A DNA stretch of 64,000 nt. It comes from Dermacentor variabilis. Taxonomy: Eukaryota; Arthropoda; Arachnida; Ixodida; Ixodidae. Position numbers and translations under genes: made by a program. This document shows positions 8,665 through 63,425 of this stretch, piece by piece (the stretch's first letter is position 1; every line of letters starts with the position of its first letter). Location of the stretch: assembly GCF_050947875.1 (NCBI RefSeq), contig NW_027460291.1, positions 30,565,589 through 30,629,588 of the forward strand, read 5' to 3'. The notes under the pieces were generated by a model. The model did not search any database. It saw nothing but the letters and a program-made list of their open reading frames with translations, and was not told where the DNA came from.

Positions 8665-11092
8665 TAATATACTTTATTCACAAATATTAAGAACTGCATT
8701 GAGAAACAAACATTTTAAATCTTCCAAGTACAATAATCATTCTCACTCTTGCATTGCGTAAAGCAGTCCTCGCTAGACACACGAATATCGAGGTTCATTT
8801 TATTGGTGAAAATTTTATCATTATAGGGTCCCGCACGACTAATTTACCAATAGAAGCTTCCGTCTTTGTTGTACCATTCCTGGTGTCTTTTTTTTTTAAT
8901 TTTCACCCGCCTTGTTTGCAGGCCTTTTTGGTCTTCATAAAATGCTGAGACAATGGTGAAAATTAAGTCAAAAACGAAAGGCCTACTCTCAGTCCTGAAA
9001 GAAAACATGCAATTAATGGATAGTGGATAACGGAGAGTTCCAATCATAAACAGGTAGCACAATACACTCAAACGCTAACCTCTGAATTGGCGAAAATGCA
9101 GAGTTTAAATTTCGAAAATGTAGGCAAATAAATCCTAGCTTCGACACCGGTTTCTTGTTACAAGTGTTCTGTGAACACAAACATACGTAGATCTTCAACA
9201 AAACAGAGCTTAATGAATAAAAAATAAACAATGAGAAACATATCTCAGGTCTTCAAAGCCTGCAATTTTCGGTCGTTCTTGACGTTGCGTAATTTGTCCT
9301 TTTCTGTGCGGCGCGAGTTGTTCAGCAGTGTATTCGCCGCAGCACTTACAACATGCCCCATTACCTCCTGTGCAGGATGATCGAAATCACACACATCTAC
9401 ATCCTCAAAGTCATGAAGGGTAGCAAACACAAGGCCGACAAGAGCCTCTTTCTGCCTAGGATGGTTGAAAAATCATACGGCATATTCTTGCGTCCTGAGC
9501 TTGTCCAATACAATTCCAGTAAATAGTACAGTGGTAACCACAACTGCTCGTGGAAACTTCAGGCCACCTCCCGTCATTTTCGTGATTAATGCATTCTCAG
9601 GATCATCTAGATCGACGTCTTGCATAACAAGGCTTTTACTGCAAGATGCGCATGCCACCTTTTTTTGAGCTGTGTGGGCACAATAGCCGGCAACATAGGT
9701 TAGTGCCGGTAGCCTTGACGTTCTTTTCTCAATGTCAGAGTCGGTCACAGTGAAGTGAAACTGGCCGTTTCTTGAATTTACACTTGTCTCCAACGTGGTG
9801 GTAGTAGCATGTCCAAATATGGCAGGTCCAGAACCTTCTGCAAACGCAGTTTGTTTTCAGATTTATATATCAGCCTTACAGACACGTGGTAATTGGCACC
9901 AGACAATTGCCGGTACTTTCGAAAGCGATCATCCAAGCTCTCAGTTTGAAATTTGGCCAAAAGAGTGTACTCGATATGAAGCTCTTCGAGACAGCATATG
10001 GCAAGTTCCTGCAAGGTGTGGGTAGTGTGGCTGAAAGCTGTGTGCGTTTCACGTGTCAGGCGGCCATTGTCATGTTTGAGGCTTCCCCAGTGATCAAGCC
10101 ATTGAACTATTCTCTCTAAGAATTCTAGTTGAGGACATGACGATGAAACTATCGGGCATTGCAACGGATCTCGCAATCGCTGTCTTTTTCTTGGCGTCTT
10201 GACGTTAACAATGTTCCACCAAGTCAAAATGGTGTCGACATATTGAGATATTTTCTTTGCATGCGGGAACGTTGCGACACTGAGAGCAGCAACAGTAGAC
10301 GAGTTAAAAATTTTAAGGCCAGTTTAACCTTCAGCCGTTCCATGTTCGAGGGGTTCATCGCCTTCAAAGTGAGCGTTGGCACTAGCTTCAAGAGCTCAGG
10401 CTTTTCGGCTTCGTGCAACTGGCATAATACATTGAGAGATGCTGTATCTTTGGTTCAGCCTCATCACTCTTCGGTTCAGGAAAGTACATGCATTTGCCAA
10501 TGTTTCTTTGATTCAGCCAGTTATTTCTTATACAATTTAGTATGTGAAATGGGTCCACTGCGAAAAACAGGGGTCATGATGGGTCAGCAGGATGCTGGTA
10601 AACAGTGCTGACACTTGCCGTCTTAGCGAAGTAGGACATGGCTTTTCTGTTTATGGAGTTATTGTCCGAGATCACTGCTAAAATTCTAAAACCAGATGCC
10701 TCTAGATCAAGAACAATCTTCTGAAGGAAGTCGTGCAGCACCTTAGCATTGATTTGTGGCACAGGAAGAATGTGTACAACATCCTTTTTTGAAGAAAGCA
10801 GGCTGTGTATCGTAAATACATGGCCAGTTTTTGATGCAGTTGATGAATTTACCGCAGTACCAGTAACAAAGCCAGCGTTGTAATAAAAAACGATTGAAAT
10901 TGAACCTCATCAATCATTAACGTAACAGTCCTTTCATGCTCTTTATATGTGCTTACAATACGTTTTGCATAGGAAAGAAAGCTACATTCTTGCTGCTTCG
11001 TTTCAGGGCTTACATCGTAGAATGAACACAGTCTTCTGATCGTATCAGCATCGATTCGTTGGCATCTTAAGCTTGCTACGTTAAGCTCTGCT
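8665..11092 (-). mobile_element. P-element/THAP9-type DNA transposase, 5'-truncated and frame-broken
   Basis: Minus-strand translation gives in order: VTLMIDEVQFQSFF (about 10900, first RNase H-fold Asp region), VISDNNSINRKAM (frame 10762-10574), a 150-residue block at 10227-9778 ending in RFRKYRQLSGANYHVSV, and C-terminal blocks at 9793-9473 and 9430-9245. These are hallmarks of P-type transposases, including the C-terminal segment that in this family precedes a Cys-rich end. The N-terminal THAP DNA-binding domain is missing because the element stops at an RTE fragment near 11090. The frame changes at least four times. The tail runs to an AATAAAG near 8670 on this strand. Gene-level function is lost. 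Confidence 0.8.
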
Positions 11093-11912
11093 ACGTTTCC
11101 CTTCCCTTGGAATCCATTCTGTAACTCTTAATGACCATCGGTTATCTTCCCTCCTCATTACGTGTCCTGCCCATGCCACCCCATTTCTTTTTCTTGATTT
11201 CAACTAAGATATCTATCACTCGCGTTTATTCCCTCGCCCAATCTGCTCTTTTCCTATCTCTTAACGTTACACCTATCATTCTTCTTTCAATAGCTCGTTG
11301 CGTCGTCCTCAGTTTAAGTAGAACCCTTTTCGTAAGCCTCCAGGTTTCTGCCCCGTACGTGCGTACTGGTAAGGCACAGCTGTTATAAACTTTTCTTTTG
11401 AGGGATAATGGCAACCTGTTGTTCATGATCTGAGAATGCCTGCCAAACGCACACCAGCCCAGCATTCTTATTCTTCTGATTATTTCAGTCTCATTATCCG
11501 GATCCGCAGTCACTATCTGTACTAAGTAGATGTATTCCCTCACCACTTCCAGTGCCTCACTACCTATCGTAAACTGCTGTTCTCTTCCAAGACTGTTGAA
11601 CATTACTTTAGTTTTCTGCAGATTAATTTTTAGACCCACCCTTCGGCTTTGCCTCTCCAAGTCAGTGAGCATGCATTGCAGTTGGTCCCCTGAGTTACTA
11701 AGCAAGACAATATCATCAGCGAATCGCAAGTTACTAAGGAATTCTAAATTAACTCTTATCGCCAACACTCCCCAATCCAGGTCTCTGAATACCTCCTATA
11801 AACACGCTGTGAATAGCATTGCAGAGATCGTATCGCCCTGCCTGACGCCTGTCTTTATTGGGATTTTGTTGCTTTCGTTATGGAGCACTACGGTGGCTGT
11901 GGAGCCACCGTA
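11090..11912 (-). mobile_element. RTE-type LINE fragment, RT core to C-terminal part
   Basis: The minus-strand frame 11768-11226 encodes RFADDIVLLSNS (intact catalytic FADD box), GLKINLQKTKVMF and the downstream thumb region. Sequence on both sides extends the match to the RTE element at 51560-54590: the right end matches the KKGVRQGDT region and the left end the segment near the 3' UTR. Both the 5' half and the microsatellite-like 3' terminus are missing. Its left edge coincides with the truncated end of the P-type transposase. Confidence 0.85.
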
Positions 11913-11984
11913 GGAATGATTGGTTCGGCATGAATGGCGATGAGCTGGCGATATTACGCTGTTACCGATCGGGGCATGATAAAA

Positions 11985-25167: not shown

Positions 25168-56525
<31,358 letters not shown>

Positions 56526-56674
56526 GTAATGAAGTTGGGGGGCATTTCTCCTAGAAACTGAAAATTACCGAGAGCAAAAAAAGAGAGAAAAAATTCCTGG
56601 ACGAATGCGATACTCTCTAATGTGAAATTGGAGCACAGCTTTACACGTGTTCTCATTTAGCAATATACTGAGGC

Positions 56675-58089: not shown

Positions 58090-58623
58090 ACTATAGGGTA
58101 TATAGGGTACAGGGTATAGTCTACTATAGTGTATAACACCTGTGTCTTACGAGTACTCACGTACGGGGCAAAAACCTGGAGGCTTACGAAAAGGGTTCTA
58201 TTTAAATTGAGGACGACGCAGCGAGCTATGGAAAGAATAATGACAGGTGTATCGTTAAGGGATAAGAAAAGAGCAGATTGGGTGAGGGAACAAACGCGAG
58301 TTAATGACATCTTAGTTGAAATCAAGAAAAAGAAATGGGGGGGGGGGAGGCATGGGCAGGACATGTAATGAGGAGGGACGATAACCGATGTTCATTAAGG
58401 GTTACGGGCTGGATTCCAAGGCAAGGGAAGCGTAGCAGGGGGCGGCAGAAAGTTAGGTGGGTGGATGAGATTAATAAGTTTGCAGGGACAACATGGCCAC
58501 AATTAGTACATGACCGGGGTAGTTGGAGAAGTATGGGAGAGGCCTTCGCGCTGCAGTGGGCGTAACCAGGCTGCTGCTGCTGCTGCTGCTGTTGATGATG
58601 ATGATGATGATGACTATAGGGTA
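58090..58623 (+). mobile_element. 5'-truncated RTE LINE copy with target-site duplication
   Basis: 58101-58612 carries the last part of the RTE family seen at 51560-54590 (frames 58129-58368 and 58335-58565, with LRTTQRAMERIMTGV and WRSMGEAFALQWA) and ends in the same mixed GCT/GAT tail. It is flanked by an 11-bp direct repeat ACTATAGGGTA at 58090-58100 and 58613-58623. About 30 bp of filler (CAGGGTATAGTCTACTATAG) next to the left duplication resembles scrambled target sequence. Confidence 0.9.
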
Positions 58624-58789: not shown

Positions 58790-58801
58790 AGACTTGTTCT
58801 T
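58790..58801 (+). repeat. Left target-site duplication of the Penelope palindrome
   Basis: AGACTTGTTCTT, repeated exactly at 63414-63425. Its last two bases (TT) also belong to the terminal sequence of the left arm. Confidence 0.8.
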
Positions 58802-59018
58802 CATGGTTATACTGCGCTCAGTTTTACAAACACGATACTAAGGAAGGACAGGACGTGGACGGACGAAGCGCAAACTACCAACTGTTTGATACTGTTAAAG
58901 AACGCGCTTATATACAAGGAGATATGTTGCGGGGGGGGGGGGGGGGTTGGGGGCTACATATAAAAAGATATGACAAGGTGACGACATGTGATTATAGTTT
59001 GGGTCAGGCATACATCCT

Positions 59019-61073
59019 TCACATGCACCCGTTCGCCCTGGCGAACTCAACCTCAGCTTTGATAAGCGCGATGGACGGAGTGCTTACGCACGTCTCTTTT
59101 TCTTTAGCTATCGCAAGCGCCTCCCATATTTCTCGCTCCATTTTTGTTTTTGATGTTCCGATGACTGTGGTGCTTTCTATTAGCGGGGAGCATTTGCACT
59201 GTTTGCAATGTGCGGCCAAGTTGCTAGGTGCTGTCAGAAGCTGGCACGTGTATTTGTGCTCCCGTAACCTATCGTTTAGACAACGTCCAGTTTGCCCAAT
59301 GTATACTTTCCCGCAGTCTAGTGGGATTTGGTAAACAACTGAAGTAGCGCATTCCACGTACTTTTTTGAGTGCTTAGTCTGACAGACCGTACCACTAGGG
59401 TTGGCCTCTTTGGATCCTGCGTTCACCTTCTTGCACATGCCTTTTAGTTTTTGCGGGGCGGAGAACAGAACTTGAACGTCATGGCGTTGGGCTGTCTTTT
59501 TTATCCGATGTGACAAGCCATGGATGTAAGGCAACACCACGCGTTTTTTCAATTTTTTCTGTGTTTTCTGCCTTTTCCTGTTGGCTCTGATTTCGGGCAA
59601 CAAGTTTTCACAGATTTGCACCACCATGCTGTTCGGGTACCCACTGTTTCTCAAGCGGCTTACTTGCAGATCGATGCTCTCCCTCACAGCATGGTGGCAT
59701 GATTTTTCAATTGCTTGACTGATGCAAGCCTTGGCGATGCCTCTTTTAATGATTTTAGAATGGCAAGAGTCGTACCTCAGGATTTCTTTTTCTCCTCTAG
59801 TTTTGTAGCACCAGCACATGTGGGAGCCTCTGATCCTAATGTTTATATCAAGGTACTGCAATCGACCTTCGGTAGGAGTCTCGTACGTGAACTCTAAACC
59901 TTCATGTGCTTTTTTGAACATGCTGATGACAGTTTCTACGCTACATGGATCGGTTTGGTTTTCTTTCATGCACACCAAATAATCGTCAACATATCTGAAA
60001 CAGGTAGTTATGTTCGTGTCTCCAAACAAGGCGGCAAGTTTCCTGTCTCCCACACTCAAATATAAGTCGGAAAGCACGGGAGCTATACAAGAACCAATAG
60101 CGATTCCATCCTTCTGCTCATACACGCTGTCACCATATTCGATAAACGCACCATGTAGATACAGTTTTAACAAGTTCACAAAACTAGAAATACTGCACTT
60201 GCACACGTCCTGAAATTTGGTGTAGCCCAACGTGTCGATGGCTTCTTCTACTGCTAATACCACCGCTTGCCTCGGGACACTGTAGAACAGGTCCTTCACG
60301 TCGATTGAAAAACAAGATGTCGGCGGGCTACTCTTTAGTGTTGCAATAACTTCGTCAGAGTTGCGGATCAAGAACGGGTCATCGAAAGGTAAAGAGTTCA
60401 AGCAGGCCTGAAGGTAGTCCGCGATGCATCTTTGCCATGTTCCGCGATCTTCAATAATCGTCCTAAAAGGAATTCCCTCTTTGTGGGTTTTTACCGTGAA
60501 AAATGGCTTCAGAGTGAGTTCTTTGCTCTCTTTCACGCGCTTTGCCAACCTTGTCAAGCCCATGCTTTCACATGTTCTGCCTGCTTCATTTTTCAGTTTT
60601 GCAATTGCTTTGTACGTAATGTTGCTTATTGCGAAATTCTTACGGATCGCTTCTTGAGCGGATTTTTCGTATTCAGGAGCGTTCATCACGACAAACACGC
60701 CTGTTTTGTCCGAAAGGAGCAGTTTTAGATTTTCTTTCTTGAGGTACCTAGTCACTCTGCTTGTTCCTGCAGGTTTGGGTTTTTTTACTAGGTTCTTGTT
60801 TGACACTCCCGTCAAAACTTCTTGGATGCAAGTTACTTTTTCTGGCTCAGGGGTTCTTTCCGCGACTGAGCGTACCATGGCTAGGAACTGTACTGCCGTT
60901 ACTGGAGGTTCAATTGCGTATTTTGGTCCCTTATTTAGGGTCTGTTGCACATAATCTGGGATCTTTCTACCGGATAGGTTGACAGCACCGCTTCCTTGAG
61001 GCTTACGCTTTTCTCTTCTAGGGAGGCTCTTGAATGAGCCTTTCCACAAGCTTTCGGCATGCAACTCTGCCAA
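59019..61073 (-). CDS. Penelope-like RT with GIY-YIG endonuclease, left arm
   Basis: Intact 684-codon frame. PLE RTs are related to telomerase RT and the C-terminal GIY-YIG nuclease nicks the target. Positions: SDKTGVFVVM at 121-130 (N-terminal DKG-like motif), PFFTVKTHKEG 190-200, FSIDVKDLFYSVP 255-267 (motif A Asp), QKDGIAIGSCIAPVLSDLY 320-338 (motif B), RYVDDYLV 360-367 (catalytic Asp pair), basic linker 498-511, VVYQIPLDCGKVYIGQTGR 579-597 (GIY-YIG), DRLREH 601-606, and EREIWEA 646-652 with the probable catalytic Glu. The listed start is TTG; the frame is open to the palindrome centre and no ATG occurs before residue 66, so the native N-terminus was cut off. Residue 194 is Val. Confidence 0.92.
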   Translation of the reverse strand: MAELHAESLWKGSFKSLPRREKRKPQGSGAVNLSGRKIPDYVQQTLNKGPKYAIEPPVTAVQFLAMVRSVAERTPEPEKVTCIQEVLTGVSNKNLVKKPKPAGTSRVTRYLKKENLKLLLSDKTGVFVVMNAPEYEKSAQEAIRKNFAISNITYKAIAKLKNEAGRTCESMGLTRLAKRVKESKELTLKPFFTVKTHKEGIPFRTIIEDRGTWQRCIADYLQACLNSLPFDDPFLIRNSDEVIATLKSSPPTSCFSIDVKDLFYSVPRQAVVLAVEEAIDTLGYTKFQDVCKCSISSFVNLLKLYLHGAFIEYGDSVYEQKDGIAIGSCIAPVLSDLYLSVGDRKLAALFGDTNITTCFRYVDDYLVCMKENQTDPCSVETVISMFKKAHEGLEFTYETPTEGRLQYLDINIRIRGSHMCWCYKTRGEKEILRYDSCHSKIIKRGIAKACISQAIEKSCHHAVRESIDLQVSRLRNSGYPNSMVVQICENLLPEIRANRKRQKTQKKLKKRVVLPYIHGLSHRIKKTAQRHDVQVLFSAPQKLKGMCKKVNAGSKEANPSGTVCQTKHSKKYVECATSVVYQIPLDCGKVYIGQTGRCLNDRLREHKYTCQLLTAPSNLAAHCKQCKCSPLIESTTVIGTSKTKMEREIWEALAIAKEKETCVSTPSIALIKAEVEFARANGCM

Positions 61074-61107
61074 GTTGTAGAAATACCTGATCAGGTATTT
61101 CTACAAC

Positions 61108-63162
61108 TTGGCAGAGTTGCATGCCGAAAGCTTGTGGAAAGGCTCATTCAAGAGCCTCCCTAGAAGAGAAAAGCGTAAGCCTCAAGGAAGCGGTGCTGTC
61201 AACCTATCCGGTAGAAAGATCCCAGATTATGTGCAACAGACCCTAAATAAGGGACCAAAATACGCAATTGAACCTCCAGTAACGGCAGTACAGTTCCTAG
61301 CCATGGTACGCTCAGTCGCGGAAAGAACCCCTGAGCCAGAAAAAGTAACTTGCATCCAAGAAGTTTTGACGGGAGTGTCAAACAAGAACCTAGTAAAAAA
61401 ACCCAAACCTGCAGGAACAAGCAGAGTGACTAGGTACCTCAAGAAAGAAAATCTAAAACTGCTCCTTTCGGACAAAACAGGCGTGTTTGTCGTGATGAAC
61501 GCTCCTGAATACGAAAAATCCGCTCAAGAAGCGATCCGTAAGAATTTCGCAATAAGCAACATTACGTACAAAGCAATTGCAAAACTGAAAAATGAAGCAG
61601 GCAGAACATGTGAAAGCATGGGCTTGACAAGGTTGGCAAAGCGCGTGAAAGAGAGCAAAGAACTCACTCTGAAGCCATTTTTCACGGAAAAAACCCACAA
61701 AGAGGGAATTCCTTTTAGGACGATTATTGAAGATCGCGGAACATGGCAAAGATGCATCGCGGACTACCTTCAGGCCTGCTTGAACTCTTTACCTTTCGAT
61801 GACCCGTTCTTGATCCGCAACTCTGACGAAGTTATTGCAACACTAAAGAGTAGCCCGCCGACATCTTGTTTTTCAATCGACGTGAAGGACCTGTTCTACA
61901 GTGTCCCGAGGCAAGCGGTGGTATTAGCAGTAGAAGAAGCCATCGACACGTTGGGCTACACCAAATTTCAGGACGTGTGCAAGTGCAGTATTTCTAGTTT
62001 TGTGAACTTGTTAAAACTGTATCTACATGGTGCGTTTATCGAATATGGTGACAGCGTGTATGAGCAGAAGGATGGAATCGCTATTGGTTCTTGTATAGCT
62101 CCCGTGCTTTCCGACTTATATTTGAGTGTGGGAGACAGGAAACTTGCCGCCTTGTTTGGAGACACGAACATAACTACCTGTTTCAGATATGTTGACGATT
62201 ATTTGGTGTGCATGAAAGAAAACCAAACCGATCCATGTAGCGTAGAAACTGTCATCAGCATGTTCAAAAAAGCACATGAAGGTTTAGAGTTCACGTACGA
62301 GACTCCTACCGAAGGTCGATTGCAGTACCTTGATATAAACATTAGGATCAGAGGCTCCCACATGTGCTGGTGCTACAAAACTAGAGGAGAAAAAGAAATC
62401 CTGAGGTACGACTCTTGCCATTCTAAAATCATTAAAAGAGGCATCGCCAAGGCTTGCATCAGTCAAGCAATTGAAAAATCATGCCACCATGCTGTGAGGG
62501 AGAGCATCGATCTGCAAGTAAGCCGCTTGAGAAACAGTGGGTACCCGAACAGCATGGTGGTGCAAATCTGTGAAAACTTGTTGCCCGAAATCAGAGCCAA
62601 CAGGAAAAGGCAGAAAACACAGAAAAAATTGAAAAAACGCGTGGTGTTGCCTTACATCCATGGCTTGTCACATCGGATAAAAAAGACAGCCCAACGCCAT
62701 GACGTTCAAGTTCTGTTCTCCGCCCCGCAAAAACTAAAAGGCATGTGCAAGAAGGTGAACGCAGGATCCAAAGAGGCCAACCCTAGTGGTACGGTCTGTC
62801 AGACTAAGCACTCAAAAAAGTACGTGGAATGCGCTACTTCAGTTGTTTACCAAATCCCACTAGACTGCGGGAAAGTATACATTGGGCAAACTGGACGTTG
62901 TCTAAACGATAGGTTACGGGAGCACAAATACACGTGCCAGCTTCTGACAGCACCTAGCAACTTGGCCGCACATTGCAAACAGTGCAAATGCTCCCCGCTA
63001 ATAGAAAGCACCACAGTCATCGGAACATCAAAAACAAAAATGGAGCGAGAAATATGGGAGGCGCTTGCGATAGCTAAAGAAAAAGAGACGTGCGTAAGCA
63101 CTCCGTCCATCGCGCTTATCAAAGCTGAGGTTGAGTTCGCCAGGGCGAACGGGTGCATGTGA
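61108..63162 (+). CDS. Penelope-like RT with GIY-YIG endonuclease, right arm
   Basis: Mirror image of the left-arm frame with the same 684 residues except Glu at 194 (FFTEKTHKEG). All RT and nuclease motifs listed for the left copy are intact. The frame opens at 61081, inside the left arm, after a TAG at 61078 that is created by the palindrome itself. Translation from a genuine initiator is therefore unlikely. The frame is free of stops, showing a recent origin or recent homogenisation. If transcribed, the RNA would only cover a 5'-truncated element. Confidence 0.92.
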   Translation: MAELHAESLWKGSFKSLPRREKRKPQGSGAVNLSGRKIPDYVQQTLNKGPKYAIEPPVTAVQFLAMVRSVAERTPEPEKVTCIQEVLTGVSNKNLVKKPKPAGTSRVTRYLKKENLKLLLSDKTGVFVVMNAPEYEKSAQEAIRKNFAISNITYKAIAKLKNEAGRTCESMGLTRLAKRVKESKELTLKPFFTEKTHKEGIPFRTIIEDRGTWQRCIADYLQACLNSLPFDDPFLIRNSDEVIATLKSSPPTSCFSIDVKDLFYSVPRQAVVLAVEEAIDTLGYTKFQDVCKCSISSFVNLLKLYLHGAFIEYGDSVYEQKDGIAIGSCIAPVLSDLYLSVGDRKLAALFGDTNITTCFRYVDDYLVCMKENQTDPCSVETVISMFKKAHEGLEFTYETPTEGRLQYLDINIRIRGSHMCWCYKTRGEKEILRYDSCHSKIIKRGIAKACISQAIEKSCHHAVRESIDLQVSRLRNSGYPNSMVVQICENLLPEIRANRKRQKTQKKLKKRVVLPYIHGLSHRIKKTAQRHDVQVLFSAPQKLKGMCKKVNAGSKEANPSGTVCQTKHSKKYVECATSVVYQIPLDCGKVYIGQTGRCLNDRLREHKYTCQLLTAPSNLAAHCKQCKCSPLIESTTVIGTSKTKMEREIWEALAIAKEKETCVSTPSIALIKAEVEFARANGCM

Positions 63163-63380
63163 AGGATGTATGCCTGACCCAAACTATAATCACATGTCGT
63201 CACCTTGTCATATCTTTTTATATGTAGCCCCCAACCCCCCCCCCCCCCCGCAACATATCTCCTTGTATATAAGCGCGTTCTTTAACAGTATCAAACAGTT
63301 GGTAGTTTGCGCTTCGTCCGTCCACGTCCTGTCCTTCCTTAGTATCGTGTTTGTAAAACTGAGCGCAGTATAACCATGAA

Positions 63381-63413
63381 CGTTCACCAACTAGCCCCCT
63401 TCATTGCTTTACT
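63381..63413 (+). repeat. Extra 3' tail of the right Penelope arm
   Basis: 33 bases (CGTTCACCAACTAGCCC... to ...GCTTTACT) lie between the end of the symmetric arm and the right target duplication. They probably are the true 3' end of the element, which the left arm lacks. Confidence 0.6.
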
Positions 63414-63425
63414 AGACTTGTTCTT
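63414..63425 (+). repeat. Right target-site duplication of the Penelope palindrome
   Basis: AGACTTGTTCTT, identical to 58790-58801, directly after the 33-base tail. Confidence 0.8.

Follow-up and report, generated by a model that had tools for sequence, protein, structure and literature searches.

A near-perfect palindrome in the tick Dermacentor variabilis, probably a single Penelope-like insertion, and the paired tailed and untailed ends of its relatives

Results

The 64,000-nucleotide stretch analyzed here (hereafter, the window; Dermacentor variabilis, NCBI RefSeq assembly GCF_050947875.1, contig NW_027460291.1, positions 30,565,589 to 30,629,588 of the forward strand) contains a 4.58-kb palindrome that is genuine as assembled and that is a single, probably recent, insertion of a Penelope-like element. 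The reading that we favor, with a probability of roughly three in four, is that in one insertion both strands of a staggered cut in the target primed reverse transcription of one element RNA, at two adjacent start sites. The parts of this reading that are visible in the sequence itself are a single 12-bp target duplication, one tailed and one untailed end, a 5' stop that is the same in both arms and one substitution between them. The object itself is of an already known kind, and its value lies in a rule for the ends of such insertions that extends across the family.

Structure of the palindrome

Aligned outward from 61090/61091, the left arm (58800–61090, reverse strand) and the right arm (61091–63380, forward strand) matched as reverse complements in 2289 of the 2291 positions aligned, and an inverted-repeat search returned the same pair of arms as its longest, with 0 nt between them. 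Both are copies of the same 5'-truncated Penelope-like element arranged head-to-head, the left with an untailed 3' end (...CCATGAA). The first-pass annotation, made from the sequence alone, had described a near-perfect palindrome without a spacer whose arms differed by one substitution and by the length of one poly-G run, and all of this was borne out by the alignment. The substitution lies at offset 597 from the centre, at 61688 in the right arm (forward strand; partner base 60493 in the left arm), and its right-arm allele was seen in 0 of the other insertions covering that site; the sole length difference is a run of 16 G at 58931–58946 in the left arm against 15 C at 63235–63249 in the right. 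Over 2281 positions the two arms show 1 difference, compared with a mean of 20 to other insertions.

The arms meet in TGATCA (61088–61093), a self-complementary 6-bp word that is already native to the full element at unit positions 312–317, where native copies read AGCAATGATCAGG (unit coordinates, here and below, are those of a real 2619-bp unit taken from a tandem array). Palindromes of 6 bp of this type start at only 32 positions of the unit. Truncation of both arms at the same 5' base, as annotated, was confirmed, and it falls at this native word. A search for further copies with the same centre had also been proposed, and the exact centre, AAATACCTGATCAGGTATTT, was found only once in the 2.48-Gb assembly. 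Matches of the centre to mir-80, LOOT and other small RNAs were rejected, as all were under the gathering score and were produced by the palindrome.

A 12-bp direct repeat, AGACTTGTTCTT, at 58790–58801 and 63414–63425 encloses the whole palindromic unit, and the final TT of its left copy is common to the element end. The right arm carries a 33-bp 3' tail (63381–63413, forward strand), consisting of the first codons of the full-length frame, and the left arm carries none. Owing to this tail, the right end of the element lies at about 63413 and not at 63380, where it had been placed. The longest word common to the left and right flanks is 8 nt, on either strand. Because a single target duplication surrounds the whole unit, the palindrome is the product of one event and not of two insertions, a conclusion that the first-pass annotation had reached while overlooking the target duplication, the right-only tail and the loss of 114 codons described below.

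Each arm holds an open frame of 693 amino acids (left, 59019–61100, reverse strand; right, 61081–63162, forward strand), and the only difference between the two is at residue 203, which is V in the left frame and E in the right. These frames had been called intact, which is correct in so far as both are open over the reverse transcriptase and the endonuclease, but compared with the 805-amino-acid frame of a tandem copy both are short of 114 residues at the N terminus, and with them of the start codon. The former ATG at the point in question reads CTG in the window, the first in-frame Met is residue 75, and both 5'-truncated frames are predicted to have been dead on arrival. The proposed Penelope-like identity was upheld by the telomerase-related reverse transcriptase (telomerase-like fold) that marks these elements and by the C-terminal endonuclease (GIY-YIG fold) that marks their GIY-YIG-bearing members. 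The RVT_1 (reverse transcriptase) match, at residues 224–397 of the right frame (61750–62271, forward strand; mirrored at 59910–60431, reverse strand), scored 29.0 bits, just below the cut-off of 29.6. Further characters of the class are an optional 3' tail of 30–40 bp at the frame start (here 33–36 bp, beginning at the start codon of the 805-amino-acid frame), a target-site duplication (12 bp at the window insertion) and tandem units with pseudo-long terminal repeats (pseudo-LTRs), which are present in the family as the 2619-bp units; the window insertion has no tandem part. A hammerhead ribozyme, which not every member is known to carry, gave no Rfam match in the window stretch (to E 5) or in L022 (to E 10).

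Head-to-head insertions across the genome

The 3'-end 21-mer of the element has 795 exact matches in the assembly, with the initial 8 nt of the tail directly after 471 of these, and a 26-mer from the reverse transcriptase core marks 109 copies at two mismatches or fewer. Among 100 listed of these 109 copies, adjacent neighbours within 6 kb were head-to-head in 15 cases, tandem in 12 and tail-to-tail in 0, and for the 3' ends of contig 1, of which 100 were listed, the corresponding numbers were 26, 2 and 0. The arrangement had been annotated as unusual; with 15 such pairs it is instead habitual in the family. A second long dimer, L032, is likewise symmetric, with arms of ~2.6 kb. This dimer and L031 (2.9 kb arms) resemble the window insertion in being head-to-head, in having one tailed and one untailed end and in having a target duplication, whereas L031 differs from it in a 41-bp arm difference at the centre and L032 in that, symmetric as it is, only AT is common at the junction. 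At another locus (G000:C2:270026306-270047810), at least six tandem units face at least three tandem units head-to-head, the core 26-mer marking 6 on the reverse strand and then 3 on the forward.

To compare ends, 36 head-to-head insertions were classified: 20 from contig 1, 15 from among the copies that matched the window insertion best, and that insertion itself. The best-match set came from scoring 40 of 1129 candidates and is biased toward long, window-like copies. Of its 20 stretches, 16 had head-to-head pairs (L031–L045 and L050); L044 was excluded because its left end stops at unit position 2525, L046–L048 because they have one arm or are tandem and L049 because it repeats L038. Among the 26 contig-1 pairs, five represent one segmental duplication, and 20 independent pairs were included and two left out. 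The excluded L046 and L047 (G000:C4:9172647-9174822 and 9181695-9183834) are an untailed and a tailed arm that face each other across ~6.9 kb; they may be the two halves of a dimer that a later insertion separated.

In each of the 36 insertions, one end was tailed and the other untailed. End positions were bimodal, with tailed ends at unit positions 2624–2632 and untailed ends at 2590–2600, the latter having 0–2 nt of uninterrupted tail in every case. Among the listed contig-1 pairs, 24 of 26 had one exact tailed end, and the other two (L058 and L067) each had one slightly diverged tail. A target duplication of 9–14 bp flanked 35 of the 36 insertions; a repeat of at least 8 bp occurred in 0.8% of 1050 mismatched flank pairs used as a control. 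The target sequence did not differ between the tailed and untailed sides, base counts over the 36 flanks giving general A+T richness only. Either arm could be the longer: the untailed arm in 17 of the 36 and the tailed arm in 11, with 8 pairs equal to within 3 bp. Where the gap exceeded 100 bp, the untailed arm was longer in nine pairs and the tailed arm in seven. Elsewhere on contig 1 (G000:C1:125010753-125177819), nine tailed 3' ends lie on the same strand at a spacing of ~18–27 kb, as if a long block had been repeated.

Arms of one pair come mostly from one template haplotype. Within pairs there were 56 differences in 26,449 shared positions; just three of them, of which L033 has two and L067 one, involve alleles that both recur in at least two further insertions. 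Older pairs have diverged further (L034, 16 of 2332 positions; L064, 9 of 318). In two head-to-head pairs beyond this comparison (G000:C5:3465202/3466924 and C8:2716617/2718018), both arms carry an identical one-base variant of the core 26-mer, a further hint of one template. Equal 5' stops were also in excess: the eight pairs that agreed to within 3 bp compare with a permutation mean of 1.5, and 0 of 20,000 permutations reached eight. The excess was seen separately in the contig-1 sample (6 of 20 against 2.35 expected; 0.7%) and in the long dimers (2 of 11 against 0.18; 0.9%). Unit position 2519 is a hot spot of 5' ends, at which seven arms stop, some as spacer-free mini-palindromes (L069). 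A hammerhead ribozyme was considered as the cause of this stop and rejected, as the Rfam searches of the window stretch and of L022 gave no match. The junctions in general look like end joining, with an overlap of 1–7 bp in 11 pairs, a blunt join in five and filler in 20. Among the 15 fillers of at least 7 nt, seven matched nearby sequence better than shuffles did, including that of L042, which is largely an element segment.

Other features of the window

The window also contains broken pieces of a gypsy-like LTR retrotransposon with integrase and reverse transcriptase/RNase H frames (39466–44530, reverse strand; 82-bp repeats at 39466 and 44413), and copies of a LINE-like element (long interspersed nuclear element) with endonuclease and reverse transcriptase frames (51510–54571, 58128–58613 and 11086–11913) that are in direct and inverted orientation and 87–94% alike. 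A frame at 56072–56554 (forward strand) matching Pfam Sulfatase (E 5.7e-16) probably belongs, as an exon, to an arylsulfatase-like host gene.

Discussion

The insertion that we propose would begin with the endonuclease cutting the two target strands ~12 bp apart. From one target 3' end a complementary DNA (cDNA) would then be started at the tailed site, and from its counterpart a second one ~33–36 nt further in, after which both would halt at the same RNA position, either the RNA 5' end or a common stop. The cDNA 3' ends, self-complementary in TGATCA, could anneal and be filled in by host end joining with no need of a spacer; the near-perfect symmetry of the window insertion would follow from both cDNAs having halted at a single native palindrome. 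Two independent starts, one per target strand, account for both arm orders, for the fixed positions of the two ends and for there being only one target duplication, and it is likely, judging from these sequences, that the element copies itself from both cut target strands at once. Purified protein of a Penelope-like element from Anolis cleaves and extends both target strands, and it initiates at two neighbouring internal sites in agreement with the tail seen in the genome (PMC11167929).

Several observations weigh against this reading. L064 has no target duplication, and the alignment of the untailed end of L035 runs to unit position 2600 and so takes in 8 nt of the tail, with a mismatch. The template test is weaker by nearest arm: for the left arms of the 36 pairs, the partner alone was closest for 14 and shared first place for 15, and another arm was closer for seven, most of these being short arms. 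Neither the contig-1 sample (rho 0.36, p 0.12) nor the long dimers (rho 0.33, p 0.33) showed a significant correlation of arm lengths, and the rho of 0.72 over all 36 pairs mixes the two samples. No partner was present in the list within 6 kb for 48 of the 100 listed contig-1 3' ends, so that the evidence for two-endedness does not extend to every insertion. In vitro, the two strands did not differ in the start sites used by the Anolis protein, and nothing in that study requires each strand to take its own start site (PMC11167929). Finally, L033 has eight arm differences, two of which have alleles each present in at least two other insertions.

The last of these bears on the least secure step, which is that both cDNAs would be made on one RNA molecule and not on a separate RNA each, both from the same source locus. 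Priming from both strands on two such RNAs is the alternative that survives best, and we regard it as possible, if the less probable of the two: L033 resembles two haplotypes and is possibly a two-template dimer, and the sharing of variants within pairs would also be expected if one locus supplied most of the RNA in the cell. Against it, exactly one start of each kind in every insertion is easier to obtain if both starts compete on one RNA, and the excess of equal 5' stops speaks against separate RNAs. One start of each kind together with the shared variants suggests a single RNA on which each of the two sites is used once, L033 perhaps being an exception.

A snap-back or self-priming route, in which the tailed cDNA (or an antisense RNA) folds at TGATCA and is copied back into the second arm, appears unlikely. 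For Penelope elements, the 2013 rotifer paper put self-priming forward on the basis of head-to-head repeats whose junctions hold palindromes (PMC3846280), and the first-pass annotation had similarly suggested snap-back or template switching at the 5' end. Such a route would account for the equal arms of the window insertion, their near-identity and the self-complementary centre, and some junction fillers resemble local fold-back copying. However, a loop-free hairpin of 6 bp is sterically poor, and a copied arm ought to run through the tail, whereas the left arm of the window insertion stops at the untailed start site of the family. A second arm copied from the first can neither gain a tail nor reach further 5', so the tailed arm would have to be made first and the untailed arm could never be the longer; a tailed arm, in turn, cannot be copied from an untailed one. 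The window arms are equal and are not decisive alone, but the 17 pairs with a longer untailed arm, nine of them by more than 100 bp, lead us to discard snap-back as the general route.

Long near-identical palindromes are a known class of assembly artefact, and an assembly fold-back or chimera, with the palindrome absent from the tick itself, would be one more case; this is very improbable here, given the distinct flanks, the target duplication and the one-sided tail, neither of which a fold-back should produce, and the recurrence of this anatomy in 35 further pairs, whose arms are of many different lengths. Two separate insertions, or one copy that later underwent inverted duplication or gene conversion, are just as hard to credit, since both arms lie inside one target duplication and end at the same 5' base, and since conversion, which can homogenize palindrome arms, does not keep them equal in general (L034 and L064).

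Beyond the favored reading of two-strand priming on one RNA, we put forward, with our opinion evenly divided, a symmetric integration for Penelope-like elements. In this model a protein dimer would hold one RNA across two active sites ~36 nt apart, each extending one target strand, so that in every two-ended insertion one end would be tailed and the other not; the cDNA ends would be sealed by microhomology end joining. If true, it would add a third target-primed route to the one-ended priming of LINE/R2 elements and the twin priming of LINE-1, and would account for head-to-head copies in animals at large. The insertion route and head-to-head habit of these elements have been at issue, self-priming having been proposed in 2013 (PMC3846280) and the later steps being described as unvalidated in 2024 (PMC11167929), in the parts of these papers used here; the portions used of PMC8969392 and PMC12910113 add nothing on mechanism. 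Copying from two strands would explain the long-puzzling inverted copies of the class. The one-tailed, one-untailed rule was not recognized in the literature searched, which leaves out most subscription journals; combined with the test of arm order, it makes the insertion route an answerable question in any long-read genome. For annotators, long perfect palindromes of this family need not be assembly errors.

Comparison with known systems

In LINE-1 twin priming, both target strands prime on the element RNA and an inverted 5' part results, the two cDNAs covering different parts of one RNA. Here, by contrast, both cDNAs would span the same part of the RNA from its 3' end.

Poseidon PAc of Anolis carolinensis (PMC11167929) shares with the tick family its tandem units and, on the favored reading, two adjacent internal start sites that agree with the genomic tail and the cleavage and extension of both strands. 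It differs in having a hammerhead ribozyme, for which our Rfam searches of the window and L022 gave no match. That study is biochemical; the terms 'head-to-head' and 'palindrome' are absent from it, and it does not derive inverted copies from two-strand priming.

The Penelope elements of the rotifer Adineta vaga, as described in the part of PMC3846280 used here, are like those of the tick in their frame with reverse transcriptase and GIY-YIG endonuclease, their pseudo-LTRs, their inverted head-to-head copies, a tail of ~31 bp that is optional on one inverted end, short target duplications and junction palindromes. In the rotifer, the inverted partner is mostly a short pseudo-LTR, whereas in the window insertion both arms contain reverse transcriptase and endonuclease. 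In the tick, moreover, each of the 36 insertions has the tail at one end only, and the order of the arms contradicts self-priming as the general route.
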